From a virus, in IMG/VR virus record IMGVR_UViG_3300008952_000013, positions 62,001 to 126,000 of that record: a stretch of DNA of 64,000 nucleotides. One strand, given 5' to 3'. The translations under genes and the position numbers were made by a program. Of the stretch, positions 39,256-64,000 are shown piece after piece. Position 1 is the stretch's first letter, and every line of letters begins with the position of its first letter. The notes below the pieces were generated by a model. The model was not told the origin of the DNA. It was given only the letters and a program-made list of their open reading frames with translations, and searched no databases.

Positions 39256-39256
39256 C

Positions 39257-39285: not shown

Positions 39286-39327
39286 ACATCTATAACTTTT
39301 AGAAAAAAAGGAGTCTATAGGATAACT

Positions 39328-48600: not shown

Positions 48601-51600
48601 AATAGTAATTCTATATTGTTGTTTGATTCTAGTGATAATAGTATCAATTTAACGTATTCAAATGATTCATCAAATAATCATATAATTGACATAACTGCAG
48701 ATATACCAGAACAAGCAAAACCCCTGGAAATGTTCTTTTATCCTACATTTGATTTTAAAGAACTATTGCCTTTAATTAAGGAAAAAGGCACAGGGGGAGA
48801 TCCTCAATTTATATTTGACTATAACCAATTTCAAATACCAGGAAAATGGCAAGATTTTATTGAAACAAAAGAGGTTCAAGTTGAGGTTACAAAAAAAAGA
48901 GAAATAAGTAAGGTTAACTTCACCACTATAACTGTAAATGCAATTGAATTGTGGAATACAACTTGGAAAGATTATTTTGAAGGAGCAAATTCTGCAGCAG
49001 AGGCTGCAGATCAAGAACCACCATATGATATGGATTTGATAAGCGAACATGTTGCTGATACTGATTTAGAACATATACATATACCAGATGCAATGGATGC
49101 TCAAATTGGGGGGTTTGACCCACAAACCTCTCAGCAGATTATGCCTGAGTTAGATGAACCTATTCGTTTAAGAATTCCAGAGGATGTGAGTACAGAAGAG
49201 GAAGAATATACAGTATGGGAACCAACAACTGAAGAAGATGTGGTTCAATCTCTTGTAATACAACCATCTTATGCCACTACTGCAGAACTTGTTGCTACAG
49301 TAGCAGGACAACAACAGGAGTTTAAGCATGGATGGATAATGCAACAACCAAATGGAACTCAGGTAGTTGAATATAATAATCCAATAGAATATGATAACTT
49401 AACAGTAGTATATGTAGATCAGTATGGAGAAAGAATAACGCAACCAAATGATGTTAATACACAATCTGTGAAGGGTTTTCAAAGGTTATTTGAGTTTTTC
49501 TCACATAAGTTTGGAGATATTGAATCTTCATTCAGGTCTAAAAACTTCTGGACAGGTAAAGATCCCTATATACCTAGAAAATATCAATATTATTTAGCCA
49601 ATGATATTGACGAAGCTTCTACAACTAGAAGTCACTTTAGTGGTCAATTAGTAGAATTAGGCTTTCCAGATATTATGAATAAGGAAAGCTTTCAACATCT
49701 TGACAGTAAGCATAATTTAACTATTCAAAAAACAACAACAGATGACCATGCACAATATTTTGGTGATTTATTTGATAATTATGAAAGCTATACAAATATA
49801 GTTGGTGATTTAAGTGAGGGAGTGGATGGTGTTATCTTTTCAGAAGAAGTGTCTACGAAAAATGTTTTTTATGCTGTAACAGATAGCCATGTAGAGGAAG
49901 TTTTTAATGTCAGCAACAACTTCCAGGTTGATAGTGTAAGTGGTGCAGATAATGCTGCTTCTGTAGTAGGTATTACAGAAAATGATACAGAGATAGGTTT
50001 TTATTATCCTGTTGTAAAATATGCCACTCATTGGGAAAGCAATACAAGAATCCCCATAAATACAGCAATGTACATTGCCTCTGATGGTGGTGATCTTGTA
50101 GTAACTAATGATGGTCAAGAACTTAATTACTTAAATAGCATAGAGCAATTAGGTTTATATTTTGTAAATTTAATAAAAAAAGATCTAGAAGGTATTTTTA
50201 ACACATGGGATGGGGGTAATAAGCCTTGGCTATATAAAGACAACAGGGGAGATTGGATAGGGTTTGATCATTATTATCAACCTAGTGGAACAGATAATTT
50301 AGTTTATTATGCACAAAGCAAATTATCTAAAGGTTATGATGGGAAAGCTTCAGCACAACACACAGATCTTAGAGAAAGAAATTTAGTTGATTTTACTGAA
50401 TGGGTTGAGCTTAGGTTTACTGAATTTGATGATTATAACTATAATGCTCTAGAAGAAGTATTCCAACAGATCTATGACACTATAGATGGTCTTGATAATG
50501 ATTACCATCCACTAGAAGGTAATCCAAACCTTGATTTTACAGCTAAAACTCTTACGTCTGCTGGATCTATTGCAGGATTAGATATTTCTGCAAGTGGTGG
50601 TTATAATTCAAGTGATGATTCATGGTCAGGTGGGTTTAATGGAGATCTTGACGCTAGTTATGCAGATATTACAACTGCTGTAATAACTAATCTTACTTTA
50701 AAAAATCCAGGTTCAACAATTACCAATTTACTTTTAACTGCTGAACAAAATGAAGCTTTAGCTGCAGAAGTATCAGCAGAACAAATTAGGAATGCTTTTG
50801 ATCTAGTAGATGACCTTGGTGTTTCTTTATTAGATAAGTTTGCAGAAGAGTTTGACACTAATGACAGTTTAACATTCTATGAGGACTTAGCTAAAACATT
50901 TGATTCTAATGATCAATATTTTGAAGAAGCTGGAACCATAGAATTTTATGAAAGACTAGCAAAATCATTTGATATATTTGATAGACACAATGACACTGCA
51001 GGTGTGACAGTTTTTGATTTTTATGAAGAATTAGCTAAAGAATTAGATACTGTAACTAATTTTTATCTACAATTGTCAGCACAACTTACTTCAGGACAGG
51101 TATCAAATGTAGGTAGCTTTATAAATAGATATGATAATTTAGCTTCAGGATTTCAAACTATAAGTTCTGATAATGATCAAGACCACAACCATATAGAGAG
51201 ATTACAGCAAGTTGGAGCTAGATTTGTTGAATATGGAAATTTAGCAGATGGTTTTGAAAATGAATCTATAATAGTTTCAGTAAGTAGTCAAAATATAGAT
51301 GGGGCATGGAGATTAGAACAAGTTGGAGCTAATTTAGATGGATATGGTCATATAAAAGATGGATTTTCTCAAAATGGAGATAGGCTTAAAGAGATAGGGT
51401 ATTTACTTACAGGTTCTAATGATTATAGTCAAATAAAAGCAGGGTTTATTGAAGGTAATCCTGGTATGGTTAACCTTCAAGAAATAGGGGAGAGGCTTAC
51501 AATTGCCTCAGACTATAATCAAATAAAAGTGGGGTTTGCAAATAGTGATGATAGACTTAAAGAAGTTGGAGCTAGGCTAGTTGAATATGAGACATTAGCA

Positions 51601-54435
51601 GATGGTTTTCAAACAGAAGATATAGACGCTGCAGTACCTGGTGTATTAGAAGATCAAAATGGTGTATATAGGTTAAAACAAATAGGGGCTTGGTTAACTG
51701 ATTATGAACAGATAGCAAATGGATTTTCTGTTTATGATGATGGTGCTAATTTAGCAACTATTGGTGGTTTATTAAATAGTGATTCTGAATATGAAGCAAT
51801 AAAGAATGGATTTGTAGTTGGTGGTCATCTTCCTGAGATTGGTGCTTTATTAGATAGTGAGTCTGAATATGAAGCAATAAAAGATGGCTTCAACACTGAT
51901 GACAATTTAAATGAAATAGGGAAGCTTCTTGGCGTAGATTATGATGGCAACACACTTTCCTCAGATTATGATTATATAAAATTTGGATTTGCCACTGTTG
52001 ATAATCTTCTAACTATTGGTGGCATGTTAACTTCTGCTAACAATTATGTTAACATAAAAAATGGTTTTGCTGAAAAGGAAGTTAATAATGTTACTGGAGA
52101 AACTAGACTTCAAACTATTGGTGGTTTACTAAGCAGTAATGATGAACATGAAACCATAAAAAATGGATATGTAAATGCTGGATTTCTCACTAATGTTGGT
52201 GCTTTATTAGATCATGAGGATGAACATGAGTTAATAAAATCAGGATATGCTACAGATGCTAATCTTGAAATTGTTGGTGGTTTAATAAACAGTAATGATG
52301 AACACTTAAAAATAAAAACAGCATATGCTACAGATGCTAATCTTGAAATTATTGCTGGATATTTAACTAATGATGTAAGCACAATAAAAGGGCATTTTGT
52401 TAATCATGATGGTGGGTCAAATTTAGTTACTATAGGTGGTCAATTAACTGATGATATAGATGCAATAAAAGGACATTTTGTTAATCATGATGGTGGGTCA
52501 AATTTAGTTACTATAGGTGGTAAATTAACTGATGATATAGATGCAATAAAAGGACATTTTGCTACAGATGCTAATCTTGCAACTATTGGTGGTTTAATAA
52601 ATACTGAGCCAGAACACTTAAAAATAAAAACAGCATATGCCACAGATGCTAATCTTATAATTATTGGTGGCTTAATTACTGAACATGCAGCAATAAAATC
52701 TGCATATGCTACAGATGATAATCTTGAAACTATTGGTGGTTTAATTACTGAACATGCAAAAGTAAAACTTGGATATGATACTGATGATAATTTAGGAGCT
52801 ATTGGTGCTTTATTAATTACAGATAATGATTATGAAAAGATAGCACTAGGGTTTTCAACATTAGGTGGTTCTGATGCTGGTACTAGATTACAGACTGTAG
52901 GGGCTAATATAAACACCAATCATGATGAGATAGCAGCAGGTCTTACTTCAGAACAACTAGCTATTATTGGTGCAAATATAAATGATACTGATACAGTAAC
53001 ATTAGCTGGTGGTGCTACTGCTACTCAACTTGAGTTTGTAGCTCAAAATATAGATTTAACTTCTACTGGATTATCAGGTATTACTGGCTTTTATGACAAC
53101 ATAGCGTTAGAGTTACACCAGTGGGATTATAATCATGGTGTTAATACTCCATCAGGAAGTAAGTTTTATTTCTATAACAACTTAGCTGAATCTTTAAGTA
53201 ATAGATCTCAATATGTGAATCCTAGTGATGATAGTGCAATACCATTTTATTCAAAACTAGCTCTTGGTTTACATAATACAGATGATTTTTACAGTAACAT
53301 TTCATCAAGTATAGATATTGGAAATTTATCAATAAGCTATATAGATCTAGCTACAGCACTTTTAGCTGATGATACTTTTTGCCCTAGTTTAAGTTCAGTG
53401 CTTGATTTTTATGATGATTTAGCTAAAGGTTTTGATGACACTAAATCCACTACAGGTTTCTATAATGAATTAGCTTCTGGATTTCATGATTTAGATAGTA
53501 CCATTGGTGGAAGTGTTCCTGGAGCTATAGATTTCTATGAGAATTTAGCTAATGGTGTAGCTTCTACTACAGCATTTCATGGATATATTGCTCTTGAACT
53601 AGCTGATACAGATAATTTTCATCCACTTTTAGCTGGTGGATTCTTTAATGCTTATTCTGTCAATGACGATGGTAAAATGGCAGGTGAAGTTCTTGTTGAT
53701 GAATTGATAGACAATAGTGCTTTTATAGGTGTTTTAGCATCTAACATAGCAACATCTACAGATTTTTTAGATGCTTTAGTTGAGTGGGAAGACTCTCCAC
53801 ATACTTTCTGGTCAAAACTAGCAGCAGAAATAGATTTAGCAACTTTATCCAGTCATCTTACGCCTATTAATACATTATCACAAGAGAATATGTATGGTCA
53901 AAAAACTATTTCATTAAAATTCCCTAATGATGTACATAGTGATCCAGACAATGATCTTGTAATTGATCATACTCATGATTTTTCTGAAAACATAAGTGTA
54001 TCTGGTTATGCTGATTCTACACAAGTAGATTCTTCAGGAACTGTTGCAGGAACAACAGATTATTGGCCTAGTGGGGGATACAGTAATCCTTCAGATATTA
54101 GATGGAAAGAAAACATTTCTAATTTAACAGAAAGTTCGCTGGATAAACTTTCTAAATTAGAAGTATTCAATTATGTTTGGAAGAAAGATAGACCATTTGC
54201 AGTTGTAGCACCAGAGAAAATTAAGGTAGGTATTTCAGCCCAATCATTAGAAGAACAATATCCTGAATTAATATATGAAGTTAATGGGGTCAAGAACATT
54301 GATACTTTGGGCTTAACCACTACAGTCATTAAAGCTACTCAAGAACTTAAAGAAGAAAATCAACAATTAAAGAAAGAGAATCAAGAACTAAAAGACAAGG
54401 TTGAGAGGTTGTATAAGCACTTAGGACTTAATTGA
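39700..54435 (+). CDS. Giant repeat-rich tail fibre with S74 intramolecular chaperone, 4911 residues
   Basis: The ATG at 39700 follows GGGG (39691-39694), which directly abuts the terminator T-run. Residues 1-1850 are a mixed, aromatic- and acid-rich region without familiar motifs. A fibre module (SSIIETSILSIEDPLIHLAR, residues about 1910-1930) matches modules in the two preceding giants. Residues about 2340-2760 are beta repeats: LTTLGGTLGVTGNTQLNNG x4 and LTVSSGGLEVTGATTLNNK x3, flanked by two copies of a GYGDxSGW module. TTDDHAQYF near residue 3348 is a common fibre motif. Residues about 3710-3800 and 4460-4650 hold FYxxLAxxF repeats that bracket about 21 NLxxIGGLLxxxxEYxxIKxGF repeats (3833-4437). 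The C-terminal 114 residues are a Peptidase_S74 chaperone: Ser4798-Asp-Ile-Arg-Trp-Lys4803, then VGISAQSLEEQYPELI and a coiled-coil tail. Role as a fibre is well supported; receptor unknown. Confidence 0.87.
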   Translation: MNNNRNKNTSTRNHQESHVPSSSSNHQKIAQSDYNHLPIVSPQNRYGLMDWDLLKSDPLLYGKGVLYGRMIIAGSYLGNRKYTATIEQIHDRVVQTITPISAEEFVDEDGNPKLTPLTEEQYESAVEEGLAPQGWEANQQFVDSTQCIIRFDDFKISYNDRRSKKNKPEVDYYYIVWDADESVEWSMVHQIGAALFSNISADFEAWLASDPIIFRDIDSEEFTADTTSLWSTSMTYEEWLDKFLARNEAKPSDQFLAWVQNGFNVTVANSILNGEGLASLGDIDNLFGEGVSKKYRIENYRDYGDKNRRDAIQNKEGNSSINDRYGQYYVLKNIDVTDIVEGKETTIVSDVTKIEIEEDGQTIKPFFNQQFDESSGKHYFSYLNDNNFQLKSTDFGPHTYNVEYYGDYIAYNTQENLDAYNAWIIENSEEHNSDPTKVFEALGFTNSDDSFRTEPPIVASGFFEDDYAHFVDNYEIQQAYMNSFGKSWFDLLSSDKDLASSVERVERYSDYLAKRGLDDTELNKLGYQADYFEAYEKSTGQRAFNLDKNLPDDQQPDEETDRVYANLIHGTFPLELSNNKTFTGTVSIIAPDIFYDYRNRYLEFLDVDNFGFQSIVDNKELQYKYKDEFYSNLSSRRLEIIDKSDEFSPTTYGDWGERSQLYPGYLKLQRNRGHYRVYSDVFKNYVNSFVDSGRFPSFEDVIGQLVDETNLITNADYAIWDFERQSKRNELYSEASDPSNTYHSEYSDYQNDLDDWNNNGQVGDEPIDPFIGLANSFLESSGVVSIHGSRLQGIPSEDIRFGDGNIYSEPDQEIPEYSTNPIWTQWDGYSAEKKQETTLEWDQWVVDHEAWVELGSTQEPEPEEPSGKYKYPEPYKTVVNKMRVENTLQFREKIADSLEKVFERDIDYTVDPLSSETVSVDLGFLVDKGIVPSEEEYLEKYKTNYKLTATKSFYYIGGNGEKIYYQEEDRDNTDLIKPKEELIKHNSKRRSYFKQNGSPVTKKDFTNIGSSLEEISFDFHITSDFKRWYKFNQFKGFTAYEMLYNCLNPLYSTADGQSYRTEKLLHLDWNGAYGTLENKVTKISWEKDLANNQTSLNWNNLNLSGYSLFDPTDVYSGKLIEMLIYQALVNKKPFVYEYYIEVDNWYLLPDLTDESKKAYDEEYSYKGTPYELIPDQEDESDVFFSELSSDKIYFSVKMKDEDGYYSSLSSNFTSLDRGRLTLHQGLIGANNAGILEVDDFKPLFTAVVSGSSFNIKEYTPLAKYRNISGVLIDEEVSIFHPEVKADQQYQTYQKGTQSFLDLTSKHISIKSDDWQVDVSEKEVENGESTYLQNKEEKGFFASQDGINIHKTFSIIEPEYYVYNDQGILEEEVPETSTEKEFSINLSHSTLTIDNPYQSKNSPNTILDSDKLELRSDAGGITLSLNSNVDNGSSLSDRPSIIIEDDSYNYFILTNDGVVNVSGDYKDFSSHKFGKTLEIYAPTVSMDTGWLSINSDGRYDYTSVITHSYLGHDQILINEFNYSNLLTPSSIVLTNKHSILDDNVRLDPSTGNELFNIREEEDDSTKTYSLAIPFGSFGQMYYIENIDVDTRYGDFQTHLALKNYNPALFGSPVVDIDDPYSFATPPNQEQSANISTWFSLKNWIISRPYLSQYSLTKEDLLKFKRFTNDDNFDFPNGEEENYLHFITPHYVDFIETPDFHSYASELTLKPNYLSISHVNEGAMFRHGLMALSENDRLELYPKAFAQVTKDNITIKNKDEEKLILEANLVAGENSSGKFVLNTNNGLVLFDNLTDDNDEVSDFEDLISKSKSTLTTSGVSFIDNLSSDPKFEELAEPGDEWGYEVSLGRLSGLRLTSNILLESESEDPNSEDSKIVGSYTTSIKPKEATFGGNVEVKNDLLIQGDFLVTGESSIIETSILSIEDPLIHLARGNEGLNIMDLGIYGDYFDASDQIVNPEYENYQNNLGNTNWLLNWQTENEYITQTQNEVATDEDGNPIIPSQYIGGHPTRFAFVKKRNTISDFYLLADLPQDDKDFFEETDDNEIINYQIKEDNFAKEYLATLYANLAPFNLTLKSFNHITSIEPDLYSQIEYAWESDADLEQQDGSDINTETEINSIVLKEGKITVSHELNSQGSLTVDGSAKLKNDLVIENTSLFEAYTTYMGDGGSDALAYFNLDEVPTETIEVFKVDNIGNTDIFGTASIRRTLSVDKKTTLSDELEVTGVTTLNDNLNIGDVGDDDLPQFSVIESSGNTNIKGTLGVKGITTLDSSLQSRNIYAGGSIYVQIPPNTDSGNTAPINTFEIDRDTGNTTIKGTLDVKEEDKLTTLSKLKVLDSIDISGFVTFGGYGDKSGWLITGNDDTNGDDLDNEETTENITTYIKASVDASVNDGLPHSVILISDGEDSLTTLSTVSSTINGTLAVTGTLDVDELTTLGGTLGVTGNTQLNNGLTVTDDLTTLGGTLGVTGNTQLDGGLTVSNELTTLGGTLDVTGATQLNNGLTVTDDLTTLGGTLSVAGATQLNNGLEVSNALTTLNQGLSVTGDVTTLTGSLTVTGATTFNDGSATAIDNTLTVTGATVLNSTLSVLNNLTTLHSLVVNGGITFNDITVFDGYGDESGWIITGNDDTDGGEYNSDDSDINSTTYIKASVDASVNDGLPNSVILISDGDGTEENTVITTLSAVDSTISGTITTTGTTTSGGKLTVSSDGLEVTGATTLNNKLTVSSGGLEVTGATTLNNKLTVSSGGLEVTGATLLQDTRMTSWEIWKNDDEDENTLSRNSNDGVLTLGKGLIKGSQIGEIPSDIVTGNSTDILGAGEVTYEAWLQGVKDFSFLVGHSLPAIGLSAETLEVLVGEDKPYSNNKLLSQDIFTSGINKAVELGFSEAERAFVTGYLTFYEDNSGQSRNTSGGFDEPENTHSNSIPTDGIYSPIASRAWVNNRNIKLGVKQTNESIPYFDLSFREMDSSQTFNDNSNSILLFDSSDNSINLTYSNDSSNNHIIDITADIPEQAKPLEMFFYPTFDFKELLPLIKEKGTGGDPQFIFDYNQFQIPGKWQDFIETKEVQVEVTKKREISKVNFTTITVNAIELWNTTWKDYFEGANSAAEAADQEPPYDMDLISEHVADTDLEHIHIPDAMDAQIGGFDPQTSQQIMPELDEPIRLRIPEDVSTEEEEYTVWEPTTEEDVVQSLVIQPSYATTAELVATVAGQQQEFKHGWIMQQPNGTQVVEYNNPIEYDNLTVVYVDQYGERITQPNDVNTQSVKGFQRLFEFFSHKFGDIESSFRSKNFWTGKDPYIPRKYQYYLANDIDEASTTRSHFSGQLVELGFPDIMNKESFQHLDSKHNLTIQKTTTDDHAQYFGDLFDNYESYTNIVGDLSEGVDGVIFSEEVSTKNVFYAVTDSHVEEVFNVSNNFQVDSVSGADNAASVVGITENDTEIGFYYPVVKYATHWESNTRIPINTAMYIASDGGDLVVTNDGQELNYLNSIEQLGLYFVNLIKKDLEGIFNTWDGGNKPWLYKDNRGDWIGFDHYYQPSGTDNLVYYAQSKLSKGYDGKASAQHTDLRERNLVDFTEWVELRFTEFDDYNYNALEEVFQQIYDTIDGLDNDYHPLEGNPNLDFTAKTLTSAGSIAGLDISASGGYNSSDDSWSGGFNGDLDASYADITTAVITNLTLKNPGSTITNLLLTAEQNEALAAEVSAEQIRNAFDLVDDLGVSLLDKFAEEFDTNDSLTFYEDLAKTFDSNDQYFEEAGTIEFYERLAKSFDIFDRHNDTAGVTVFDFYEELAKELDTVTNFYLQLSAQLTSGQVSNVGSFINRYDNLASGFQTISSDNDQDHNHIERLQQVGARFVEYGNLADGFENESIIVSVSSQNIDGAWRLEQVGANLDGYGHIKDGFSQNGDRLKEIGYLLTGSNDYSQIKAGFIEGNPGMVNLQEIGERLTIASDYNQIKVGFANSDDRLKEVGARLVEYETLADGFQTEDIDAAVPGVLEDQNGVYRLKQIGAWLTDYEQIANGFSVYDDGANLATIGGLLNSDSEYEAIKNGFVVGGHLPEIGALLDSESEYEAIKDGFNTDDNLNEIGKLLGVDYDGNTLSSDYDYIKFGFATVDNLLTIGGMLTSANNYVNIKNGFAEKEVNNVTGETRLQTIGGLLSSNDEHETIKNGYVNAGFLTNVGALLDHEDEHELIKSGYATDANLEIVGGLINSNDEHLKIKTAYATDANLEIIAGYLTNDVSTIKGHFVNHDGGSNLVTIGGQLTDDIDAIKGHFVNHDGGSNLVTIGGKLTDDIDAIKGHFATDANLATIGGLINTEPEHLKIKTAYATDANLIIIGGLITEHAAIKSAYATDDNLETIGGLITEHAKVKLGYDTDDNLGAIGALLITDNDYEKIALGFSTLGGSDAGTRLQTVGANINTNHDEIAAGLTSEQLAIIGANINDTDTVTLAGGATATQLEFVAQNIDLTSTGLSGITGFYDNIALELHQWDYNHGVNTPSGSKFYFYNNLAESLSNRSQYVNPSDDSAIPFYSKLALGLHNTDDFYSNISSSIDIGNLSISYIDLATALLADDTFCPSLSSVLDFYDDLAKGFDDTKSTTGFYNELASGFHDLDSTIGGSVPGAIDFYENLANGVASTTAFHGYIALELADTDNFHPLLAGGFFNAYSVNDDGKMAGEVLVDELIDNSAFIGVLASNIATSTDFLDALVEWEDSPHTFWSKLAAEIDLATLSSHLTPINTLSQENMYGQKTISLKFPNDVHSDPDNDLVIDHTHDFSENISVSGYADSTQVDSSGTVAGTTDYWPSGGYSNPSDIRWKENISNLTESSLDKLSKLEVFNYVWKKDRPFAVVAPEKIKVGISAQSLEEQYPELIYEVNGVKNIDTLGLTTTVIKATQELKEENQQLKKENQELKDKVERLYKHLGLN
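46729..47755 (+). repeat. Duplicated GYGD-SGW module flanking beta repeats
   Basis: Two copies of an approximately 75-residue module lie at about 46729-46945 and 47518-47755. Each begins GYGDxSGW(L/I)ITGNDDT and contains TTYIKASVDASVNDGLP and SVILISDG. The second copy is slightly longer because of an acidic loop. Between them sits the 25-residue repeat block. Within the giant fibre this looks like an internal segmental duplication. Confidence 0.8.
46981..47280 (+). repeat. Four tandem 75-bp repeats (25 residues each)
   Basis: Copies start at 46981, 47056, 47131 and 47206 and read LTTLGGTLGVTGNTQLNNG plus a short linker. A degenerate fifth unit follows from 47281. Period is exactly 75 bases, keeping the frame. 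Copies differ mainly at synonymous or conservative positions. Confidence 0.9.
47794..47945 (+). repeat. Tandem 57-bp repeats (19 residues each)
   Basis: Units begin at 47794, 47851 and 47908 and encode LTVSSGGLEVTGATTLNNK. The first differs from the second by one base (GAT to GGT). The third is identical to the second over the 38 bases before it diverges. The near identity points to recent slippage or unequal recombination inside the gene. Confidence 0.92.
51198..53010 (+). repeat. Array of about 21 IGG/IK-GF peptide repeats
   Basis: Residues about 3833-4437 of the 4911-residue fibre repeat a unit of 19-29 residues with the consensus NLxxIGGLLxxxxEYxxIKxGFxTD. By reading I count about 21 units, some with insertions (for example near 51950). 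The N-terminal units use RLxxVGARLxEYxxLADGF and the C-terminal ones NLxxIGGLITEHAAIKSAY, so the array shows a gradient. I do not recognise this repeat family; the pattern suggests short helices in a long trimeric stalk. Confidence 0.85.
52393..52554 (+). repeat. Near-perfect 81-bp tandem duplication
   Basis: Two consecutive 81-base units (52393-52473 and 52474-52554, 27 residues each) appear to differ at only two bases: C/A at 52441 versus 52522, and a G/A near the unit boundary. They sit within the longer IGG repeat array and mark its most recent expansion. Confidence 0.92.
54091..54432 (+). other. Peptidase_S74 chaperone domain (second copy)
   Basis: This codes for the C-terminal 114 residues of the 4911-residue fibre. 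SDIRWK places Ser4798 and Lys4803 five residues apart, as in the known self-cleaving pair. GISAQSLEEQYPELI follows and the chain ends in a long charged coiled coil (KEENQQLKKENQELKDKVER). It is clearly diverged from the copy ending at 39252, so the two chaperones are not a recent duplication. Confidence 0.87.
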
Positions 54436-54558: not shown

Positions 54559-54801
54559 ATGCAGATAACAAGAAATATTAAAATAGATATTCCTGATTTA
54601 AAGATGAATCAATCTCATCTTAACTATATGGCACAACAACATGCAGTTCAATTTTTAAGCACTAAAGATTATTATAATGTTACTACACTTCAAGCTAGAA
54701 GCATTAGGGCTGAAGGTAGATTAAACAGTGCTAAAATTCATCTTGAAGGGAATCAAAATTTCATTACTAAAATATCAGATCATGTGTTAGAGGACTTTTA
54801 A
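54559..54801 (+). CDS. Unidentified 80-residue protein, first gene of the tube operon
   Basis: I do not recognise this protein. It is small, mildly basic, without cysteine, signal or membrane segment, and looks mostly helical after an initial beta-like stretch (MQITRNIKIDIPDL). Its stop overlaps the start of the next gene by one base, so the two are translationally coupled. Position directly before a probable tail terminator suggests a head-tail joining or tail-completion role, but only by context. Its only ribosome-site candidate lies in the 3' arm of the leader hairpin. Confidence 0.7.
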   Translation: MQITRNIKIDIPDLKMNQSHLNYMAQQHAVQFLSTKDYYNVTTLQARSIRAEGRLNSAKIHLEGNQNFITKISDHVLEDF

Positions 54802-55364
54802 TGGCATTTAGTGTAACCTCAGACATATATAAGACTATATTTGAAACACTAGTAAGTGAAAGTGATGGTGGTGAGCTAGATTATGTAACTACTTTTCAAT
54901 CTAGGTTTTACCCTGTAAGAAGGGAAATGGAATATAACGCTTTATATCCCTATGTGTTCTTAAGTTTTTCAGGCACATCAAATGAAGAATTACACTCCAT
55001 GCCACAAATGCATCAATATACTAGCACTATTAGTGTGGTGGTGTTAACTTGGAATGAGGGTGATGTAAATGTTCAAACAGATGCAGGAGATCTAAATCAA
55101 GATGCAGGTTATGTTGATTTAGAAAGCAAGGGTGTTTTAGAGGTTATTGAGGATATTAAGAGGGTAATTTATACTACCCATAAAGTTAATAGATTTGGAT
55201 ATAGTGAAGGTGAAAAAAGAATTGCTATGTCTGCAGATATAGATTGGAACTTTGGCACAGTAGAAAGTCCTACTGTAACAAGCTTACAACCATTGTTGTT
55301 AAGTCCTTACATTGAGGCTAAACAATTAAACATTAATATTACCATTAGGGAAGGTAGAATATAA
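54801..55364 (+). CDS. Probable tail terminator (tail completion) protein
   Basis: 187 residues. The ATG overlaps the previous stop by one base and has AGAGGA (54789-54794) six bases upstream. The layout fits gpU-like tail terminators: an N-terminal helix (SDIYKTIFETLVSE), a beta segment (ALYPYVFLSFSG), a central strand with TSTISVVVLTWNEG, a helix (VLEVIEDIKRVIY), and final strands including DWNFGTVESP and LNINITIREG. Members of that family cap the tail tube and join it to the head, and are usually encoded just before the tube gene, as here. There is no motif that would make the call certain. A head-tail adaptor is the main alternative. Confidence 0.5.
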   Translation: MAFSVTSDIYKTIFETLVSESDGGELDYVTTFQSRFYPVRREMEYNALYPYVFLSFSGTSNEELHSMPQMHQYTSTISVVVLTWNEGDVNVQTDAGDLNQDAGYVDLESKGVLEVIEDIKRVIYTTHKVNRFGYSEGEKRIAMSADIDWNFGTVESPTVTSLQPLLLSPYIEAKQLNINITIREGRI

Positions 55365-55374
55365 GGGGTTCAAA

Positions 55375-56589
55375 ATGGCAACATTTGCAAGATTTTCATC
55401 AGGAGCTATAGGTTTAGGCTCAAGATTGTTCTTAGGGGAAGAAACTGCATGGGGAGATGCAGTTACAGAACTAAAAACATATAACATCTATAATCAACCT
55501 GGTCAAAGACCAGTAAAAACTACTACACCAATTGATGTTCCACAGCTTTATCCATCAATGTTGAGAAGAAAACCCATTAAGAGTTCAGTATCTGTAGAGG
55601 GTTCCTATACTTTCTCTTTACCTAAAACGAATATAGCTGATTTTCTTACTTTAATTTTAGGTGATGATGATGGAACAGGTGGAGTTTATGCCTTGAAGCC
55701 TTATAACACTAATAGTTGGACTATAATTCAAACAATTGGTGATACTAGGATTGCTAGATATACTGGAATGAAAGCTCAATCCATGACTTTAAATATTACA
55801 GCAGATGCTGTAGCTTCTTTTGATGTTGCTTTCTTAGGTAAAGATGAAGAGGTAGATACACCACTTAATGCAAATGGAGATGGTTCTAGTACTGGTTGGT
55901 TTACATTTGGTGGTGCTTATGCAGCACCTTTTGCATTAACAGATGGAAAAATATCTGGTTGGGCCAATAATGATTTTAGAACTGGATTAGATGAATTTGA
56001 TGCTGCTGGTGCAGCAGGTACAGATAGTGTTTTTGCTACATATGACAACTTTGTAGATTATTTCCCATCTTGGAGTGCTACTTTAAGGGTACAAAAATTA
56101 GGTTCGCCTAATACAAATGTTGCTGGTAGTGCTTTATCAACTACGCCTATTGATGAAGACAACACTATTGTTCCATTTTCAGATCTAAGTCTAACTGTTA
56201 ATAATGCATTAGAGTTTCCCACTTACATCAATGGAACCATTAACAGGAATGAACCTGTTCAAACTAGCTATAAAGAAGTAACTGGCACAATGACAGTTCC
56301 ATTCAATGAATTCACTGAAAAATTTATTGAAGATGGGATCTTTAAACAGGAAAATTATATAGCTACTATCAGTTTTACTGATCCAGATGGTGGCTCTAGT
56401 GCTGTAGAATTTAAACTACCAAACTTCTGTGTTACAGGGGATGGTGGTTTACCAGATATTCCAGAAGGTGAGGTTACTTTACCATTGTCTTTTGGTGCTT
56501 ATGCAGCTTTAGATAATAATGATACTAGTTTTGCTGATGGTAATCCTGAAGGAACAGAAGCTCCTTTAGTAGTTACAGTTACTGCTTAA
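55375..56589 (+). CDS. Tail-tube-type protein, paralogue 1
   Basis: 404 residues; AAGGGG (55363-55368) lies six bases before the ATG. The first strands (SRLFLGEETAWGDAV) match the opening of Phage_tube_2-like tail tube proteins. A central strand pair (TGMKAQSMTLNITADAVASF, then FLGKD) and a late pair (TGTMTVPF, then LPLSFGAY) complete the tube fold shared with the next three genes. It has no recognisable Ig-like extension. Being first in the series, with the best ribosome site, it is the likeliest major tube subunit; that ranking is inference. Its stop overlaps the next ATG by one base. Confidence 0.72.
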   Translation: MATFARFSSGAIGLGSRLFLGEETAWGDAVTELKTYNIYNQPGQRPVKTTTPIDVPQLYPSMLRRKPIKSSVSVEGSYTFSLPKTNIADFLTLILGDDDGTGGVYALKPYNTNSWTIIQTIGDTRIARYTGMKAQSMTLNITADAVASFDVAFLGKDEEVDTPLNANGDGSSTGWFTFGGAYAAPFALTDGKISGWANNDFRTGLDEFDAAGAAGTDSVFATYDNFVDYFPSWSATLRVQKLGSPNTNVAGSALSTTPIDEDNTIVPFSDLSLTVNNALEFPTYINGTINRNEPVQTSYKEVTGTMTVPFNEFTEKFIEDGIFKQENYIATISFTDPDGGSSAVEFKLPNFCVTGDGGLPDIPEGEVTLPLSFGAYAALDNNDTSFADGNPEGTEAPLVVTVTA

Positions 56590-57653
56590 TGGCTATATAT
56601 GATCTAAGAGAAGACCCTTCAAGTCTTCTCAGTGGAATTAATTCAAGATTGTTCGTTAGAGAAGAGGACGTATATGGAGAACCATATGTTAATGGACTCA
56701 TCTTTGAGGATTATTATCTTGGATTAATTCCTGGATCAGTTATCACTAAAGAGCAATCTTTAATAGAAATAGATTCTTTTACTGGAGAAAAAAGTTATTT
56801 CCCTCATCAGTTTGGTAAAAAAACTACTGGTGGGGTTTATGGGTTTCACCTTAATTGTCAAACTCTTGATAAACTATTTCTTCATGCATTAGGTGAACAA
56901 AATAGTAAAGTTTTAGATTTCAGTGTAGATAGAAAAGAATTCTTAGACTATGGTTTGGGTTTTTTACAAGTAGTAGATAGTAGTACAGAAGATCAAGGAT
57001 ATGTTAGTTATTTTTCTGGAAATAGAATCTCAAGTCTCACCATAGTATGTGCTGGTAATGAAACATTAATAAATGTTTTATTTACTTTTGTAGGTAATGA
57101 TGCTCAGTTTTTTAATAAGAGTGAAGTAATAATCCCTAATGATGCTACTAAGATAGTTGAAAATGTGTTTCCATCTTGGAATTCTCAATTATCTTTAACT
57201 AAGATTCCTAATGGGGATAGTTTTATTTTGGCTTTTAAAGATCTTGAAATAACAATAGAAAACAATCCCATAATTCCTGATTATTTTGATGGTGGGGATA
57301 CAATAAGAGAAATACAATTAGGAAGAAGAAGAGTATCAGGAAGATTTACATTACCATTATCTTCTAAAAATTCTACTCAAAACACTATTAGGTTTATTAA
57401 TGATTATTTTAATAAATCAAATTTCTTGATGCATTTTACTTGTTATCATGAGGGATATGAGAAAGGATCTACAGATCCTTTAACTGGTGATGTAGTTCAT
57501 ATTACACTCCCCAATGTAGTTTTTTCAGCAGATACTACACCTAAAAATATGGATTATGGAATATTAGGTTTTGATGTTGAATTTATAGCATACCCACTAC
57601 AACAAGGTGAGTCAGAAATCGAATATGATTTAATTCCATATACTGGAGTATAA
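56589..57653 (+). CDS. Tail-tube-type protein, paralogue 2
   Basis: 354 residues. It starts on a 1-base overlap with the previous gene and has no clear ribosome site of its own, so it depends on coupling. It shares the tube-family landmarks: SRLFVREEDVYGEPY at the start, ISSLTIVCAGNETLINVLF then VGND in the middle, and RRVSGRFTLPL plus LGFDVEFIAYPL near the end. It is the shortest of the four and lacks the loop expansions of the others. Expected to form a specialised tube ring or a minor tail segment. Sequence divergence from its neighbours is high, so the duplication is old. Confidence 0.65.
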   Translation: MAIYDLREDPSSLLSGINSRLFVREEDVYGEPYVNGLIFEDYYLGLIPGSVITKEQSLIEIDSFTGEKSYFPHQFGKKTTGGVYGFHLNCQTLDKLFLHALGEQNSKVLDFSVDRKEFLDYGLGFLQVVDSSTEDQGYVSYFSGNRISSLTIVCAGNETLINVLFTFVGNDAQFFNKSEVIIPNDATKIVENVFPSWNSQLSLTKIPNGDSFILAFKDLEITIENNPIIPDYFDGGDTIREIQLGRRRVSGRFTLPLSSKNSTQNTIRFINDYFNKSNFLMHFTCYHEGYEKGSTDPLTGDVVHITLPNVVFSADTTPKNMDYGILGFDVEFIAYPLQQGESEIEYDLIPYTGV

Positions 57654-57655
57654 GT

Positions 57656-58957
57656 ATGTATTTAACAGGCACTAATCATAGACTCTACATAGGAGAAGAA
57701 GCAACTTGGGCTGAAATGCCAACTAAAACAGGGGGTGTATATGCATCTGTGGACTTTAGTAGCGTATTTAAGCATCCCACTCTTTTTATTAACCCAGGAT
57801 CAAGACCTGCAATGCAATCCTCTATTTTAGAAGCAGAATCTTTGGGTTTTACTATTAGTGCTGGAGAATCAAAAACTTCTGTAGCTGGTGGATTTTCTTT
57901 TTATCTCCCTAGTTTTAAAAATCAAACTACAGTGGGTATGATGATTTTAATTAAACACCTAATGGGAAGATTAGATTATCCAACTGGAAGTACTGGTAAT
58001 TTACAATCATATGTTCCAGAAGATAATAAAAAATATGAGTGTAAATTAACCACTGGTGATGATGCTATAGATTATTTTGAAACTAGTGGAAATCAAGAGA
58101 AAAATTCTAGCCTTACTATGTTGTCATGTTTGAACCAAGACAAACAAATATACTTATACAGGGGCGTTAAAGTTACAGGAATGACCATTAGTGCTCCAGA
58201 TTCTAATTCAGTCATCTCTGTAGATTTTACTTTTTTAGCTAAAGAAGTCTTAAAATGTAAAACAAATACTAATTCTACATTAACTTTTGAAGATGACACT
58301 TCTTTTACTGGTTTTAACCCTACAGATATTGCTCCATCAGGATTTATTGCAGCCACTACTGGACAGATAGCAAGTTTTTACTATGGTGCTGCTGCTGATG
58401 ATCAGTCTACTTATCCCTCATTTAATGATGTAGCCAATACTTGGGGTGTTGGTAAGCCAAATGGTGCAGATAAACCCTTTACTGGATTTAGTTTGAGCAT
58501 TCAAAAACCAATGGATATGATACCATTGTTTGGTGGATCTAAAGTTACTTATACAAATGGAGTCATTGATTTACCAACTAAAAAAGATCAAAATATCATT
58601 AGTGTTCCACCAGGAATGTCTGGAAGTAAGACAGTTACTGGTTCTTTCTCTGTTCCACTACAGACTTTTGATTCTTCTATTTTTATTGGTGAGGACAATA
58701 ATTATTTAAGTTTATTTAGAAAAATAATTACGAAAGAAGTTGAACCAGTAGGTAATGAAAAATTGAGCTTTAAGTTTGGGGATAGTACAACATCTACTTT
58801 TGAGTTTGAATTTAAAAACATAAGGTTTGCAGGTGTAGACTTCACTGATATAGGTGAAGATGTAATTGACATACCTATTGAATTCTCAGCTTTACCTGTA
58901 GCTAATGAACATACAATTAATTCTTTAGAGAATTGTCAGATTAACATTACCATTTAG
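57656..58957 (+). CDS. Tail-tube-type protein, paralogue 3
   Basis: 433 residues; GGAG (57645-57648) lies seven bases before the ATG, inside the end of the previous gene. Family landmarks: NHRLYIGEEATWAEM at the start, YRGVKVTGMTISAPDSN then VDFTFLAKE in the middle, and KTVTGSFSVPL followed by IDIPIEFSALP near the end. The region around residues 200-270 is a longer loop than in paralogue 2. Its stop TAG shares a base with the GGAG of the next gene. Function as a tube or tube-like ring is inferred from the shared fold pattern and position. Confidence 0.65.
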   Translation: MYLTGTNHRLYIGEEATWAEMPTKTGGVYASVDFSSVFKHPTLFINPGSRPAMQSSILEAESLGFTISAGESKTSVAGGFSFYLPSFKNQTTVGMMILIKHLMGRLDYPTGSTGNLQSYVPEDNKKYECKLTTGDDAIDYFETSGNQEKNSSLTMLSCLNQDKQIYLYRGVKVTGMTISAPDSNSVISVDFTFLAKEVLKCKTNTNSTLTFEDDTSFTGFNPTDIAPSGFIAATTGQIASFYYGAAADDQSTYPSFNDVANTWGVGKPNGADKPFTGFSLSIQKPMDMIPLFGGSKVTYTNGVIDLPTKKDQNIISVPPGMSGSKTVTGSFSVPLQTFDSSIFIGEDNNYLSLFRKIITKEVEPVGNEKLSFKFGDSTTSTFEFEFKNIRFAGVDFTDIGEDVIDIPIEFSALPVANEHTINSLENCQINITI

Positions 58958-58966
58958 GAGATAATC

Positions 58967-60265
58967 ATGGCTATAACAGGTGCTGGTGCAGCATATATTT
59001 ATATTAGAGAAGAAGGATTTAAAAAAACTGATAGTACTTCTATAGATGGTTATGGCTATGGTATGATGAAGCCAGATGGAGTAACTTCATATTTTAAAGA
59101 AGATAAACTTACAGGGTTTTTTGAACAACAAACAGCATTAAGTGATGACAGTATTCCTGTTTTAACAGATTTAGATGACAATAAAACCCCTGTTGTTGAT
59201 GCAATGATTAGTGCTGGTACAATGCCTAGTAAAACTCATCAAAGATTTCACCCCAGGTCTTTAGGCTATAGATATGATATGAATAAAAGTTATATGTCTA
59301 AACATACAGTAGAGGGTGGATATAACTTTTATGTCAGTCAAGCACCATTTTTCAAAGAATTGTTTAACTTAGTCTACCCTGATAATGTTAATGAAGAATT
59401 GAAGTCATATGCTATATTTCACCCATTAGAAAAAATTGGTGAAGATGATGCTAAGGGTTATGTTTTTACAGGCATGATGGCTAATCAATTTAATTTTAAC
59501 ATACCAAATCAAGATGCTTTTCCAGATGCATCTATCAGTTTTATGGGTCAAGATGCTATTGTCTATACTAATGTCACCAGCGTTAGTACAGACATTACTG
59601 ACGAAGAGAGGCTATCTAAAAGAGAATTTAATCCAGGCACACCACTAGTAGCATGGAATTCTTTAATCACAATACAAGAAGTTGCAAGAGGAGTGATAGG
59701 AACTCCTGCTTCTGGAGACTATAATCCTGATACTGAAGAAGGAACTCCTGCTTCTACAGACTATAATACTGATGGTGAATTACCATTTAGTAATAACAAT
59801 TTTTTACCAGAACTTCCATTTGATATATTTGATTTTACTTTAAATGTAAATAACAATTTGATAGTTCCAGATTATTTAGATAACAGTCAATTTAGACAAA
59901 GACCAATTTCTGGAGTTAGAGAAATAACTGGAAGTTTTACTTTGGGATTGGATTTAGACTCAGTTGCAAGTCTTGTAAAAAATGATGTACTAGATGGATC
60001 TCAAGAACTTAATGTTCAATATATGCTTGAGAAATATTTATTTAGTTCTGATCTTGACAATACTCAAAAAAGAATTAAAGTAAGACTATATGAAGGAAGT
60101 GGAGATAATTTACAGATGGTTGATTTAACTTTAAATAATGTTATTTTTGAACAAGGTGGAACGCCATCAGATTTAAATATAAATTATTTAAGGGTTCCTA
60201 TGACCTATAGGGCTATATCTAGAAAGCTTGATGAACCAGAAATTAGTTTAAGTCTCACTCAATAA
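58967..60265 (+). CDS. Tail-tube-type protein, paralogue 4
   Basis: 432 residues; GGAG (58957-58960) is six bases before the ATG. Family landmarks are weaker but present: AAYIYIREEGF at the start, FTGMMANQFNFNIPNQDAF then ISFMGQD in the middle, and VREITGSFTLGL plus LRVPMTYRAIS near the end. The N-terminal part is expanded. Around residue 245 a short in-frame duplication (GTPASGDYNPD / GTPASTDYNTD) forms an extra loop. It is the most diverged of the four, so it may be a distal-tail or connector ring and not shaft. The stop overlaps the next ATG by one base. Confidence 0.6.
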   Translation: MAITGAGAAYIYIREEGFKKTDSTSIDGYGYGMMKPDGVTSYFKEDKLTGFFEQQTALSDDSIPVLTDLDDNKTPVVDAMISAGTMPSKTHQRFHPRSLGYRYDMNKSYMSKHTVEGGYNFYVSQAPFFKELFNLVYPDNVNEELKSYAIFHPLEKIGEDDAKGYVFTGMMANQFNFNIPNQDAFPDASISFMGQDAIVYTNVTSVSTDITDEERLSKREFNPGTPLVAWNSLITIQEVARGVIGTPASGDYNPDTEEGTPASTDYNTDGELPFSNNNFLPELPFDIFDFTLNVNNNLIVPDYLDNSQFRQRPISGVREITGSFTLGLDLDSVASLVKNDVLDGSQELNVQYMLEKYLFSSDLDNTQKRIKVRLYEGSGDNLQMVDLTLNNVIFEQGGTPSDLNINYLRVPMTYRAISRKLDEPEISLSLTQ

Positions 60266-60930
60266 TGATTTTTATAGATACAGTGTTGCCTAAGACTTTA
60301 AAACATGCAACACCCACTAACTACTTTTCTTTAGGGGAATCTAAAACTATAGGTAAGTTTTTTGTGAGAACTGAAGACTTAAATAAAGTTTTTAATTTTT
60401 CTAATGAGAATAATGTGCCATCAAGTGTGGGAAATTATATCTCAAATGATGAATTCAATAATATTGTTTATTTTATTGATGAAGTAGATGAACATCTTAA
60501 CATCAATGTTGAGACATTTAGATATGGATCAGCAACTGAAAATTTAGAAATATACCCATTGTCTGATGATAGGATTACTCTTTCAGCAATGAACAATAAT
60601 ATGCCTATAGGCATGAGAGTTAATAAAACATTTCCTGGAAAGAAGGGCTACACCTTATATGATGGAACTTATGTTAGCTATACACCCAATCAAAAACATA
60701 TCGTTGCTTTCAGTTTTGATTTCTTGCCAGAATCAACCTATGATAAGTTAATTGGATTAGTAGACAAGGAAGTAGTTATTTCTCCAGAGCCTATTTCAAC
60801 CCCAAAAGTCTCACCTTTTGAAGGTCAATCGTTTGTTTGTCAATTGCAGAACAATAATTTAGAGTTTGATTACACTATTCCAGTTAAAGGAGCAGGTTAT
60901 AAAGGAACTCTAACATTTTTAGAATCTTAG
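60265..60930 (+). CDS. Unidentified tail-region protein, 221 residues
   Basis: I do not recognise this protein. It starts on a 1-base overlap with tube paralogue 4 and has no ribosome site of its own, which ties its expression to that gene. It looks mainly beta, with strands such as NIVYFIDEVDEHLNINV and HIVAFSFDFLPES, and ends in a conspicuous segment GAGYKGTLTFLES. There are two prolyl/acidic loops near residue 175, no membrane segment and no signal. Position between the tube paralogues and the assembly chaperone suggests a minor tail protein or a tube-associated ring. Confidence 0.65.
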   Translation: MIFIDTVLPKTLKHATPTNYFSLGESKTIGKFFVRTEDLNKVFNFSNENNVPSSVGNYISNDEFNNIVYFIDEVDEHLNINVETFRYGSATENLEIYPLSDDRITLSAMNNNMPIGMRVNKTFPGKKGYTLYDGTYVSYTPNQKHIVAFSFDFLPESTYDKLIGLVDKEVVISPEPISTPKVSPFEGQSFVCQLQNNNLEFDYTIPVKGAGYKGTLTFLES

Positions 60931-60951
60931 CCAAAAAAAAGGAGTCATTTT

Positions 60952-61545
60952 ATGGCAAGAAGAGGAAGACCCCCCAAAAACCCTGTAGAGGGGGTTGTTA
61001 ATGAAGAAGTAGTGCCAGAGGCTACTGAAGAAGAAGAAGTTACACCAGAAGAAGATTTAACCCCTTCTGAAGAGACTGAAGAAGAAACACCAGTTGAAGA
61101 TAAACCAGCACCTCTAGCTAGTAGAGATGCACTTATTAAGAAAAGATATAGAGAAGGTGTAGTTACTACTAGCATGGATCGTTCTTTTGAAATAAAATCA
61201 ATAGATCCTAAAACAATGTTGTTAACTAGAGGTACAGCATTCTTACCAGCATTTAACGATTTTTTGGTAGACCCTAATCCTCAAGCTATTGGAAATCCAG
61301 AAATACAAAGTTTTGTTAAAGACATAGTATGTAAGGCAGTAACGTCTATTAATTTTGTAGATAAGGAATTAGAAAATTGTACTGAAGAAGAAACACCAGT
61401 TGAAGTATTAGATATTGATGAACAAGTGGAAATATTTGGTGCTGTTATGGAACTCTGCTCTACAGAGGAGGAGAGAGAGGAATGGTCGTTTTTTCCTGGC
61501 AGGATTGAAGAAACCACAGATGATCAATTGCCTGATAGAGATTGA
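60952..61545 (+). CDS. Tail assembly chaperone, short form (G-like)
   Basis: 197 residues; AAAAAGGAGTC (60936-60946) precedes the ATG by five bases, the strongest ribosome site in this cluster. Residues 1-13 are basic and contain an AT-hook-like RRGRPPKNP. Residues 14-52 are almost all E, P, T and V. The folded part (from about 58) has FEIKSIDPKTMLLTRG, then a helical region ending EEREEWSFFPG. Small, acidic, lying directly before the tape measure and overlapped by a second reading frame, it fits the G / G-T chaperones that coat the tape measure while the tail assembles. In that family a fixed fraction of ribosomes shifts frame before the stop. Confidence 0.75.
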   Translation: MARRGRPPKNPVEGVVNEEVVPEATEEEEVTPEEDLTPSEETEEETPVEDKPAPLASRDALIKKRYREGVVTTSMDRSFEIKSIDPKTMLLTRGTAFLPAFNDFLVDPNPQAIGNPEIQSFVKDIVCKAVTSINFVDKELENCTEEETPVEVLDIDEQVEIFGAVMELCSTEEEREEWSFFPGRIEETTDDQLPDRD

Positions 61546-61708
61546 TGTAATAGCTAGAAGATATAATCTTAATCCAGTTGATCTATTATTTACTGATTGT
61601 GAAAATGAATTTCTCAGATTGGCCTATATTAGGAAAATTGCAGAAATTGGAATAGAACAAGAAAACAAAGCTTATGAACAAGCACAAAGAAATGCCCCAT
61701 CTTCCTAG
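61412..61708 (+). CDS. Frameshift extension of the tail assembly chaperone (T-like part)
   Basis: This frame is open from just after a TAG at 61409-61411 and is +1 (equally -2) relative to the chaperone frame. The ATG pair at 61415 has no ribosome site and its first residues look out of frame, so I read it as reached only by a ribosome shift. The sensible part is the end: LIEIDVIARRYNLNPVDLLF, then a helix through IRKIAEIGIEQENKAYEQA. A shift at 61489-61495 would give a protein of about 251 residues (181 + 70). In related phages the extension recruits tube subunits to the chaperone-bound tape measure. Confidence 0.7.
   Translation: MLMNKWKYLVLLWNSALQRRRERNGRFFLAGLKKPQMINCLIEIDVIARRYNLNPVDLLFTDCENEFLRLAYIRKIAEIGIEQENKAYEQAQRNAPSS
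61471..61495 (+). other. Candidate programmed frameshift site
   Basis: Two slippery sequences lie within the only stretch where both frames are open (61412-61545). At 61489-61495 the codons TTT TTT C would allow phenylalanine tRNA to move +1 from TTT to TTC. At 61471-61479 GAG AGA GAG lets both AGA and GAG tRNAs re-pair exactly after a -2 shift. Both lead to the same frame. Sequence alone does not decide between them; no strong downstream hairpin is obvious before the stop. Confidence 0.5.
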
Positions 61709-61721
61709 TGGGGCATTTTTT
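61690..61721 (+). terminator. Intrinsic terminator between chaperone and tape measure
   Basis: AAATGCCCCA (61690-61699) and TGGGGCATTT (61709-61718) form a perfect 10-bp stem around a nine-base loop, followed by T to 61721. The loop holds the stop codon of the frameshifted chaperone, so a ribosome finishing the long form would melt the hairpin, while one stopping at 61545 would not. It would lower tape-measure transcription relative to the tube genes. Confidence 0.8.
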
Positions 61722-61734
61722 GTAGGAGAATAAA

Positions 61735-64000
61735 ATGGCTGGAGCATCTATAGACATTGGCGTAGTAATGCATGGTTTTGGATTCGCTAATGAATCCTTG
61801 GGAATATTGCGCCAAAGTTTTGAAAGAGTTGCTGCATCTACAGATAATTTAGAAGCTTCTGCTAAAAGATTTTCTGCTACACAAGGTAATATATCTAGAT
61901 TATCCAGTAATTTAAATAGTACATTACAAAATTCGACTAGTACTATTCAGGATTTTAACGATAAGATAAATAAATCTGATCATTTTTTTGATAACTTAAC
62001 TGAAGCTGTAGCTAGAGGAGAGCAGGAACAGGCTGATTATGAGAGAACCTTAAGGGAAGTAAATAAATCTTTACTTGACTTAGGGGTGACATTTTCAACC
62101 ATTGCTGGTACTCATTTAAGGGCATTAACTCAAGCATTACTTCAATCTTCCATACAAATGGAACAGTTTCAATTAATGCTTAGAGCTACTGGTGGCAGTG
62201 CTGATATAGCTGCATCTCAGATGCAGAGGTTAATTAAAATGGCAGATGCTCCTGGGTTGGAATTCCAGGGGTTAGTTCAAGGGGTTGCTTCATTACAGGC
62301 TACAGGTGTTAGTGCAGAACTAGCTGAAAAATCTGTATCTGAAATTGGTAACGCTTTAGCAGCAATAGGTGCTCCAGCATCAGAATTATCAGGAGTAGTA
62401 AGAGCCTTTAGTCAAATACAAGCTAAAGGTAGGGTATATGCTGAAGAAGTTCAACAAATTGCTGAACGTATGCCTCAAATTAGAACTATATTACAGGATA
62501 CTTTTGGTACAGGTAGAACAGAAGAAATCCAAAGAATGGGTTTATCAGCCAATGAATTTTTAGAGTTATTGGTTGATGGTATGAGTAATTTGAGTCGTGT
62601 AGGAGAAACTACACAAAACACAATAAAGAATTTTAATAATCAATTGTTCTTGCTAGGTTCAGAATTAGGAGAGGTAATTTTACCAGTATTTAGTGATTTA
62701 GTGAAGGGGTTAACTAATACTGTTAAGTGGTTTAGAGAATTACCCAAGGGAATTAAATCTACTATAGCATGGGTTACCTCTATTAGTGGAATTGTTCTTA
62801 CATTTTCAGCTATTTTAGGAACTGTTGTAACGACAATTGGATTTTTAATTCAGGGATTAAAACAATATTCAATTGCAAGTGCTACTGCTGCAGCAGCAGC
62901 AAATGTTCAAGCAGCAGCAGTAGGGGTTTTAAATTCACAATTAGCTCTTCAAAATGCTTTATCAAGGGGGTCAAAAACGCCTATAATTGATTCACGTTTT
63001 GGTGATGTTTCTAAGGCTAATCAAGAACTGCAAAAGATGCAAGGTAATTTGAATAAGGTTACAGCATCTACTACAGCAGTTAGTGTAGCAAGTGGATTTT
63101 GGTCTAAAATCATACCTATTTTAACTAAAGCTGCTAAGATATTTGGACTTTTTGCAGTAGTAGCAACTGTTGCATATACAGCTATATCTAAGATGCTAAA
63201 AATAACTAGAGATTCTTATCATTCTCTTAATGACTTGAGTAGGGGAATAGATTCTGTTGGGAATAAAACTTTTGATGTTTTAAACGCTCAATATAAAAAA
63301 GATGGGTTTTTAGATGCCATTAATAATAGGAATGAAGCCTTAAGAGAAGAATTAAAACTTTTAGACGAAACTAAAAATAAATCTTTTGGATCTATGAGGT
63401 TCAAAGGTTTAACTCAGGAATCTGAAGAAACTACAGAGTTATTTGAAGAAAAGTTAAGAAAAAGAGGAATAAGGTCAGAAATAGACTTGTCTACAGGACA
63501 AAGAAGATATCAGCAAAAAATCACTCCTACTTGGCAATATTTAGGATCTAGGATTGCTTCTCCTATGGCAAGTGAGAATCCAATTATTGGTTTAAAGTGG
63601 TGGACTAATCTTTTTACTAAAAAGTTATTACAGCCTAAAGTTGATAAGCAACCAGATGGTTATTTAAAAGAGCAAGGACAGAATATTCTTAAAAACCAAT
63701 ATGACCAGGCAGATCAAGAATATGTGGATGCATTAAGAAATAAAGATCCAAATTTTAAAGCAATAGTTATAGAAGTTCCAGCACCTATTCTAACTTATGC
63801 AGAAGATACTGTAGGTGGGGGTAGAACTCATAAGTTTAAATTAGATACTATAAAAAAGTTTAGAGAAACCATGTCTGAAGGAATGGATATGGTAAATAGA
63901 TTTGTTAAAGATGAGTTTGGAAAATCTAAATCATTTTTAAGTACAGATTTAAGTGGGGTAGATTTCAATGTTGATGTAGGTCTTTTAACTGTTGATCAAG
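61735..64000 (+). CDS. Tape measure protein, N-terminal part (3' end outside window)
   Basis: AGGAG (61724-61728) is six bases before the ATG. The frame stays open for 755 codons to the end of the window. Residues 1-110 are helical and coiled (LSSNLNSTLQNSTSTIQDF). Residues about 140-260 match the conserved N-terminal tape-measure domain (TIGR02675 type): MEQFQLMLRATGGS, then QGLVQGVASLQATG, then the signature IQAKGRVYAEEVQQIAERMP. Two hydrophobic segments lie near residues 341-372 (TIAWVTSISGIVLTFSAILG onward) and 468-490 (IFGLFAVVATVAYTAI), as usual for proteins that set tail length and may help DNA cross the membrane. It follows the assembly chaperone, the standard tail gene order. Confidence 0.92.
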   Translation, partial: MAGASIDIGVVMHGFGFANESLGILRQSFERVAASTDNLEASAKRFSATQGNISRLSSNLNSTLQNSTSTIQDFNDKINKSDHFFDNLTEAVARGEQEQADYERTLREVNKSLLDLGVTFSTIAGTHLRALTQALLQSSIQMEQFQLMLRATGGSADIAASQMQRLIKMADAPGLEFQGLVQGVASLQATGVSAELAEKSVSEIGNALAAIGAPASELSGVVRAFSQIQAKGRVYAEEVQQIAERMPQIRTILQDTFGTGRTEEIQRMGLSANEFLELLVDGMSNLSRVGETTQNTIKNFNNQLFLLGSELGEVILPVFSDLVKGLTNTVKWFRELPKGIKSTIAWVTSISGIVLTFSAILGTVVTTIGFLIQGLKQYSIASATAAAAANVQAAAVGVLNSQLALQNALSRGSKTPIIDSRFGDVSKANQELQKMQGNLNKVTASTTAVSVASGFWSKIIPILTKAAKIFGLFAVVATVAYTAISKMLKITRDSYHSLNDLSRGIDSVGNKTFDVLNAQYKKDGFLDAINNRNEALREELKLLDETKNKSFGSMRFKGLTQESEETTELFEEKLRKRGIRSEIDLSTGQRRYQQKITPTWQYLGSRIASPMASENPIIGLKWWTNLFTKKLLQPKVDKQPDGYLKEQGQNILKNQYDQADQEYVDALRNKDPNFKAIVIEVPAPILTYAEDTVGGGRTHKFKLDTIKKFRETMSEGMDMVNRFVKDEFGKSKSFLSTDLSGVDFNVDVGLLTVDQ

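Follow-up and report, generated by a model that had tools for sequence, protein, structure and literature searches.

What does a phage build with four tail-tube genes standing in a row? The question is raised by a window of 64,000 bases, taken from a virus record of 133,564 bases (62001-126000), in which four consecutive open reading frames of the plus strand, referred to here as T1 to T4, encode proteins of the tail tube family (Table 1; positions are those of the window unless labelled otherwise). The lengths of the four products and their unbroken succession from 55375 to 60265, as given in the original prediction, are exact.

Table 1. Features of the tail region in the window and their counterparts in the related contig G009
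Feature	Position	Strand	Remarks
Giant fibre-like ORF, first	9-6155		belongs to a longer frame; about 2,246 aa including the portion upstream
Giant fibre-like ORF, second	6165-23393		5,742 aa
Giant fibre-like ORF, third	23395-39255		5,286 aa
Giant fibre-like ORF, last	39700-54435		4,911 aa
Putative tail terminator / tail completion protein	54801-55364	+	187 aa; assigned by position; G009 orthologue 36% identical
T1, tail tube protein, probable main tube subunit	55375-56589	+	404 aa; phrog_290 E 2.1e-15, PF18906 E 2e-18
T2, tail-tube paralogue	56589-57653	+	354 aa; phrog_290 E 1.2e-8, PF18906 E 3e-13
T3, tail-tube paralogue	57656-58957	+	433 aa; phrog_290 E 1.7e-10
T4, tail-tube paralogue	58967-60265	+	432 aa; phrog_290 E 4e-10, PF18906 E 3e-14
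Conserved 221-aa protein	60265-60930	+	overlaps the T4 stop; G009 counterpart of 255 aa (L030 15486-16253), 32% identical
Putative tail assembly chaperone	60952-61545	+	197 aa; before the tape measure; G009 orthologue 63% identical over 138 aa
Overlapping frame (+1 or -2), chaperone extension	61415-61708	+	probable frameshift product
Tape measure protein, N-terminal part	61735-64000	+	TMP_3 E 8e-20, phrog_2335 E 9e-23
G009 T1			494 aa; 34% identical to T1; next to the same neighbour
G009 T2	L029 16654-19053		799 aa; first ~390 residues match T2
G009 third tube copy			391 aa; before the 255-aa, chaperone and tape-measure genes

The description of the four as paralogues of one tail-tube family is borne out by the PHROG family phrog_290, which matches each of them (E 2e-15 to 1.2e-8) and no further gene of the whole record. 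The Pfam family PF18906 (Phage_tube_2, with a cut-off of 27 bits) recognises T1, T2 and T4 at 67, 51 and 54 bits, respectively, all above the cut-off; T3 has no PF18906 match, and its match to phrog_290 spans nearly the whole protein. When each copy was left out in turn and scored by the profile of the remaining ones, 152 (T1), 94 (T2), 84 (T3) and 80 bits (T4) were obtained, versus at most 6 bits for the best other open reading frame of the record, so that, at the level of sequence, the kinship of the four is far above chance. The two neighbours of the block, of 221 and 187 aa, were considered as a fifth tube copy and rejected, the comparison with the tube profile being negative.

Within the family the copies are as strongly diverged as had been stated, T2, T3 and T4 sharing 23-26% identity with T1 in pairwise alignments. 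Three shared landmarks had been proposed for them. The middle one is found in all four copies (in T1 by eye), and the other two hold in a modified form: the opening landmark is clear in T1-T3 (SRLFLGEE, SRLFVREE and HRLYIGEE), being degenerate, as judged by eye, in T4 (YIYIREE), and the "closing" landmark is present in every copy (VTGTMTVPF, VSGRFTLPL, VTGSFSVPL and ITGSFTLGL) but is followed by a further 95-115 residues or so up to the C terminus, belonging to the protein's second half and not to its end. The similarity between the two halves within a protein is weak (profile E 1e-4 over 53 columns).

The type of tube protein is indicated by a profile of seven copies, the four described here and three from the relative G009, discussed below. 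Among solved structures this profile finds gp93 of phage P74-26 (PDB 8ed0; E 2.8e-9) and the 8xan major tail protein (E 1e-4), with T5 pb6 matched weakly (E 0.02), and in a profile-profile comparison the seven copies match ten single-copy tube proteins with 98% probability. Structure prediction gave low-confidence models for T1 (mean pLDDT 42.5) and T4 (35.8). The T1 model matches the fold of P74-26 gp93 with E 2.9e-7; the best eleven fold matches of T1 and the best ten of T4 are all chains of T5, DT57C, P74-26 or SH-Ab15497 from tube, baseplate or tail-tip entries, T5 p140 is included in the matches of both models, and strand-helix-strand blocks recur in both, at low pLDDT. Different predicted folds had been named in the original prediction as a refutation; applied to T1 and T4, this check gives two-domain tube proteins as the best matches of both, in models of low confidence, so that the fold matches count as supporting evidence only. 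In P74-26 the subunit comprises two tube domains and three subunits form a ring (PMC10034513); T5 and phiCbK likewise have tubes of trimeric rings (PMC8718954). Judging from the profiles and the models, each of T1-T4 is probably a tube protein of this two-domain type, forming trimeric, pseudo-hexameric rings.

The position of the block is that of a tube gene, between a terminator gene and the genes for a chaperone and the tape measure, the terminator and the chaperone being assigned mainly by position. The order is the 187-aa protein, T1-T4, the 221-aa protein, the putative chaperone and the tape measure protein, and it is comparable in P74-26, T5 and R26L. The 187-aa gene, for whose product no family match was found, adjoins T1 upstream, as the annotated tail terminator does in Jersey and KS_S4. 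Neither the 221-aa protein nor its 255-aa counterpart has a Pfam or PHROG match. The putative chaperone matches Phage_TAC_5 weakly (E 0.02, under the cut-off). At its frame overlap the sequence GAATGGTCGTTTTTTC occurs in both phages (window 61380-61710; L030 16700-17000), and the frames downstream of it look alike by eye; the overlapping frame is a probable frameshift-made extension of the chaperone. The tape measure frame runs on past the end of the window, and the complete protein encoded in the record has 2,524 aa.

Elsewhere in the genome (G000 37748-39403 (-), 55525-56787 (+) and 58363-61293 (-)), the portal gene is situated about 16 kb from the capsid gene and on the opposite strand, and primase- and DnaB-like genes lie on the minus strand between the head and the fibre genes, the primase and helicase having the same place in G009. 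A conserved protein encoded on the minus strand (L004 1281-2363 and L034 1103-2191) is 45% identical between the two phages, and its start, MF.(H/Q)DTEILT..GFK.I, resembles by eye that of an intein or Hint domain.

The relative was found by scans with the portal protein, which gave nine loci, one of them on the long contig G009 (104,851 bases, portal 61% identical). The remaining portal matches are on short contigs of at most 26 kb that yielded no tube gene. G009 was also the sole match of the scan with the terminator pair; no relatives were found with T1, T3 or T4 among viral contigs, with the T1 pair among genome contigs, with the chaperone pair among viral contigs or with the portal set among genome contigs. 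G009 carries three tube-family genes. T1 and T2 are each the reciprocal best match of their counterpart there, in the same order, and the branch uniting both T1 proteins is supported in the tree at 97/96. T3, T4 and the third copy of G009 are not separated in the tree, and neither the tree nor the reciprocal matches assign the third copy to T3 or T4. At least T1 and T2 probably existed as separate copies already in the ancestor that both phages share. Since each of these two pairs reciprocally with its G009 counterpart, the duplications look old, and at least two duplications apparently predate the split from G009. No significant family match was found for the approximately 400 additional C-terminal residues of G009 T2, an extension such as would be expected of a specialised ring. 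In G009, large fibre-like genes separate T2 from the third copy; in the window, such genes precede the T1-T4 block.

How unusual the number of copies is was assessed with 16 annotated isolates, picked from family hits and known phages as a yardstick rather than a census, and searched with both PF18906 and phrog_290. PF18906 finds one tube gene in each of the 16 (including T5, P74-26, phiCbK, CcrBL9, Epa43 and Jersey), where "one" means one detectable gene, since the known duplicate p140 of T5 is missed by both models; second PF18906 matches in phiCbK, CcrBL9 and SN1 adjoin the first with the same open-frame length and were counted with it as one gene. In 15 of the isolates phrog_290 matches the gene found by PF18906; in T5, and in a second match in Jersey, it covers just the last 70-80 positions, in another, short frame. 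The tube proteins of phiCbK, Epa43, Jersey, Vieuvirus B1251 and Seuratvirus KS_S4, among others, belong to the same family by both models. Against this single detectable copy per isolate stand the four of the phage studied here and the three of G009. Copies were not counted from a broad tblastn census (966 records, 988 places), as a single query misses diverged paralogues; the "second place" that the census gives in CcrBL9 appears to fall within the same gene. A nucleotide search of annotated phages with the region gave no match; translated searches gave weak partial matches for T1 in four Pseudomonas records (29-30% identity, E 5e-3) and no match for T4. An array of four still recognisable tube copies, or of three as in G009, has no precedent among the 16 isolates or in the open-access literature searched.

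In our opinion the balance of these data makes it probable that T1 is the main tube protein and that T2-T4 form specialised rings, probably at the tip. Specialised rings sharing one fold, at the neck and the tip, were among the possibilities offered in the original prediction; that interpretation is partly supported, the tip version being the best supported reading. T1-T4 descend from one ancestral tube gene through old duplications. According to this explanation each polypeptide would contain two tube domains, and three polypeptides would make one pseudo-hexameric ring. T1 would polymerise along the tape measure of 2,524 aa to give the long tube, and T2, T3 and T4 would each form a single trimeric ring or a few of them, of the same bore, at the tube ends, probably at the tip beside the distal tail protein, like T5 p140. 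The outer surface proper to each of the T2-T4 rings would hold a collar or a giant fibre.

Three features make T1 the likely bulk subunit: its gene stands behind that of the putative terminator, its orthologue is the best kept, and its codon use is the most MCP-like, with the highest score among the tail genes tested. The codon-use argument is a weak one, with scores similar across T1-T4 (0.65-0.70). A purine-rich AAGGGG precedes T1, and no ribosome site is seen upstream of T2, whose start overlaps the stop of T1 (TAATG); the choice of T1 is made uncertain by T4, which also has a good ribosome site (AGGAGA).

Upstream of the block the window contains four very large fibre-like open reading frames in a row, of which only the last has a Pfam match, to a C-terminal Peptidase_S74 chaperone domain; the second and third match large G009 genes in their C-terminal parts. 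Giant fibre-like proteins encoded just upstream would offer a reason for a larger number of anchoring rings, and the outer surfaces of the rings may well be the places where fibres are held. In a bolder version, the tube of this siphophage tail would consist of distinct trimeric rings in a fixed order, each of the three non-bulk types would anchor a different giant fibre, and ring identity would encode the place of attachment; we consider it rather unlikely and put it forward only tentatively.

Both the codon scores and the ribosome site of T4 could also be read as signs that two or more of the four proteins make up the long tube, in successive zones or mixed, with a surface or stiffness that is not uniform, and the four are indeed full-length members of one family. 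We regard such a tube as unlikely: a single bulk protein makes up each of the solved tubes of T5, DT57C and P74-26 (PMC8718954, PMC10713586, PMC10034513), SPP1 uses two forms of a single gene, and the extra TTP-like genes whose products have a known place, T5 p140 and T4 gp54, form single rings. Less likely still is that at least one of the extra copies forms neck rings at the head-proximal end and not at the tip. It is true that the T1-T4 block starts directly behind the putative terminator gene; in the T5-type neck, however, the tail completion hexamer joins the first TTP ring directly, with no extra two-domain ring (PMC10713586), and the known extra ring, that of p140, sits at the tip. The tip is favoured over the neck as the probable site of the T2-T4 rings because the T5-type neck contains no such ring. 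It seems very improbable that the extra copies have no role of their own, as alternative or decaying tube genes. Duplicates can persist by chance, and profile evidence alone does not show function; on the other hand, all four genes are free of interruptions and closely packed, their starts overlapping or adjoining, and G009 keeps three copies despite a T1 of just 34% identity, so that two or more of the extra copies appear to have survived a deep divergence.

The locus has a wider bearing. Tube proteins self-assemble, and a phage with four related ring proteins must therefore control where each ring is placed. With T1-T4 it becomes testable how baseplate rings arose from tube genes and how very large fibres are anchored, and the rings, should they assemble separately, would also supply parts for building tubes whose segments are ordered.

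An extra ring protein that arose by duplication of a tube gene is already known from T5, and the original prediction overlooked both T5 p140 and T4 gp54 (PMC10038345). The T5 protein p140 is regarded as a tube-gene duplicate, 9% identical to pb6, and its single trimeric ring sits between the end of the tube and the distal tail protein, within the p132 collar, which bears the side fibres; gp54 is a comparable extra TTP-like ring in T4 (PMC10038345). In T4, gp19, gp54 and gp48 form TTP-like rings toward the baseplate end of the tube (PMC10038345, PMC8718954); its tail is contractile with hexameric rings, and is comparable to the present one in arrangement alone. P74-26 provides in gp93 the best solved relative, by the seven-copy profile as well as by the T1 model, and has, unlike this phage, a single detectable tube gene. 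The best-matching annotated relatives of the major capsid protein of this phage are T5-like (34% over 106 aa). We liken T2-T4 to p140 in their presumed way of working and do not class them as its family members: homology to p140 was found neither by the seven-copy profile (E 0.9) nor by profile-profile comparison (probability 0.3%), and the failure of that profile to detect p140 means that sequence methods do not separate tip-ring from tube-ring copies. The p140 gene follows the pb6 gene in T5, and T2-T4 likewise follow T1. T5 has one extra copy that profiles do not detect, whereas this phage has four copies still recognisable as one family and about 20-27% identical, so that, in contrast to those of pb6 and p140, their interfaces are directly comparable.
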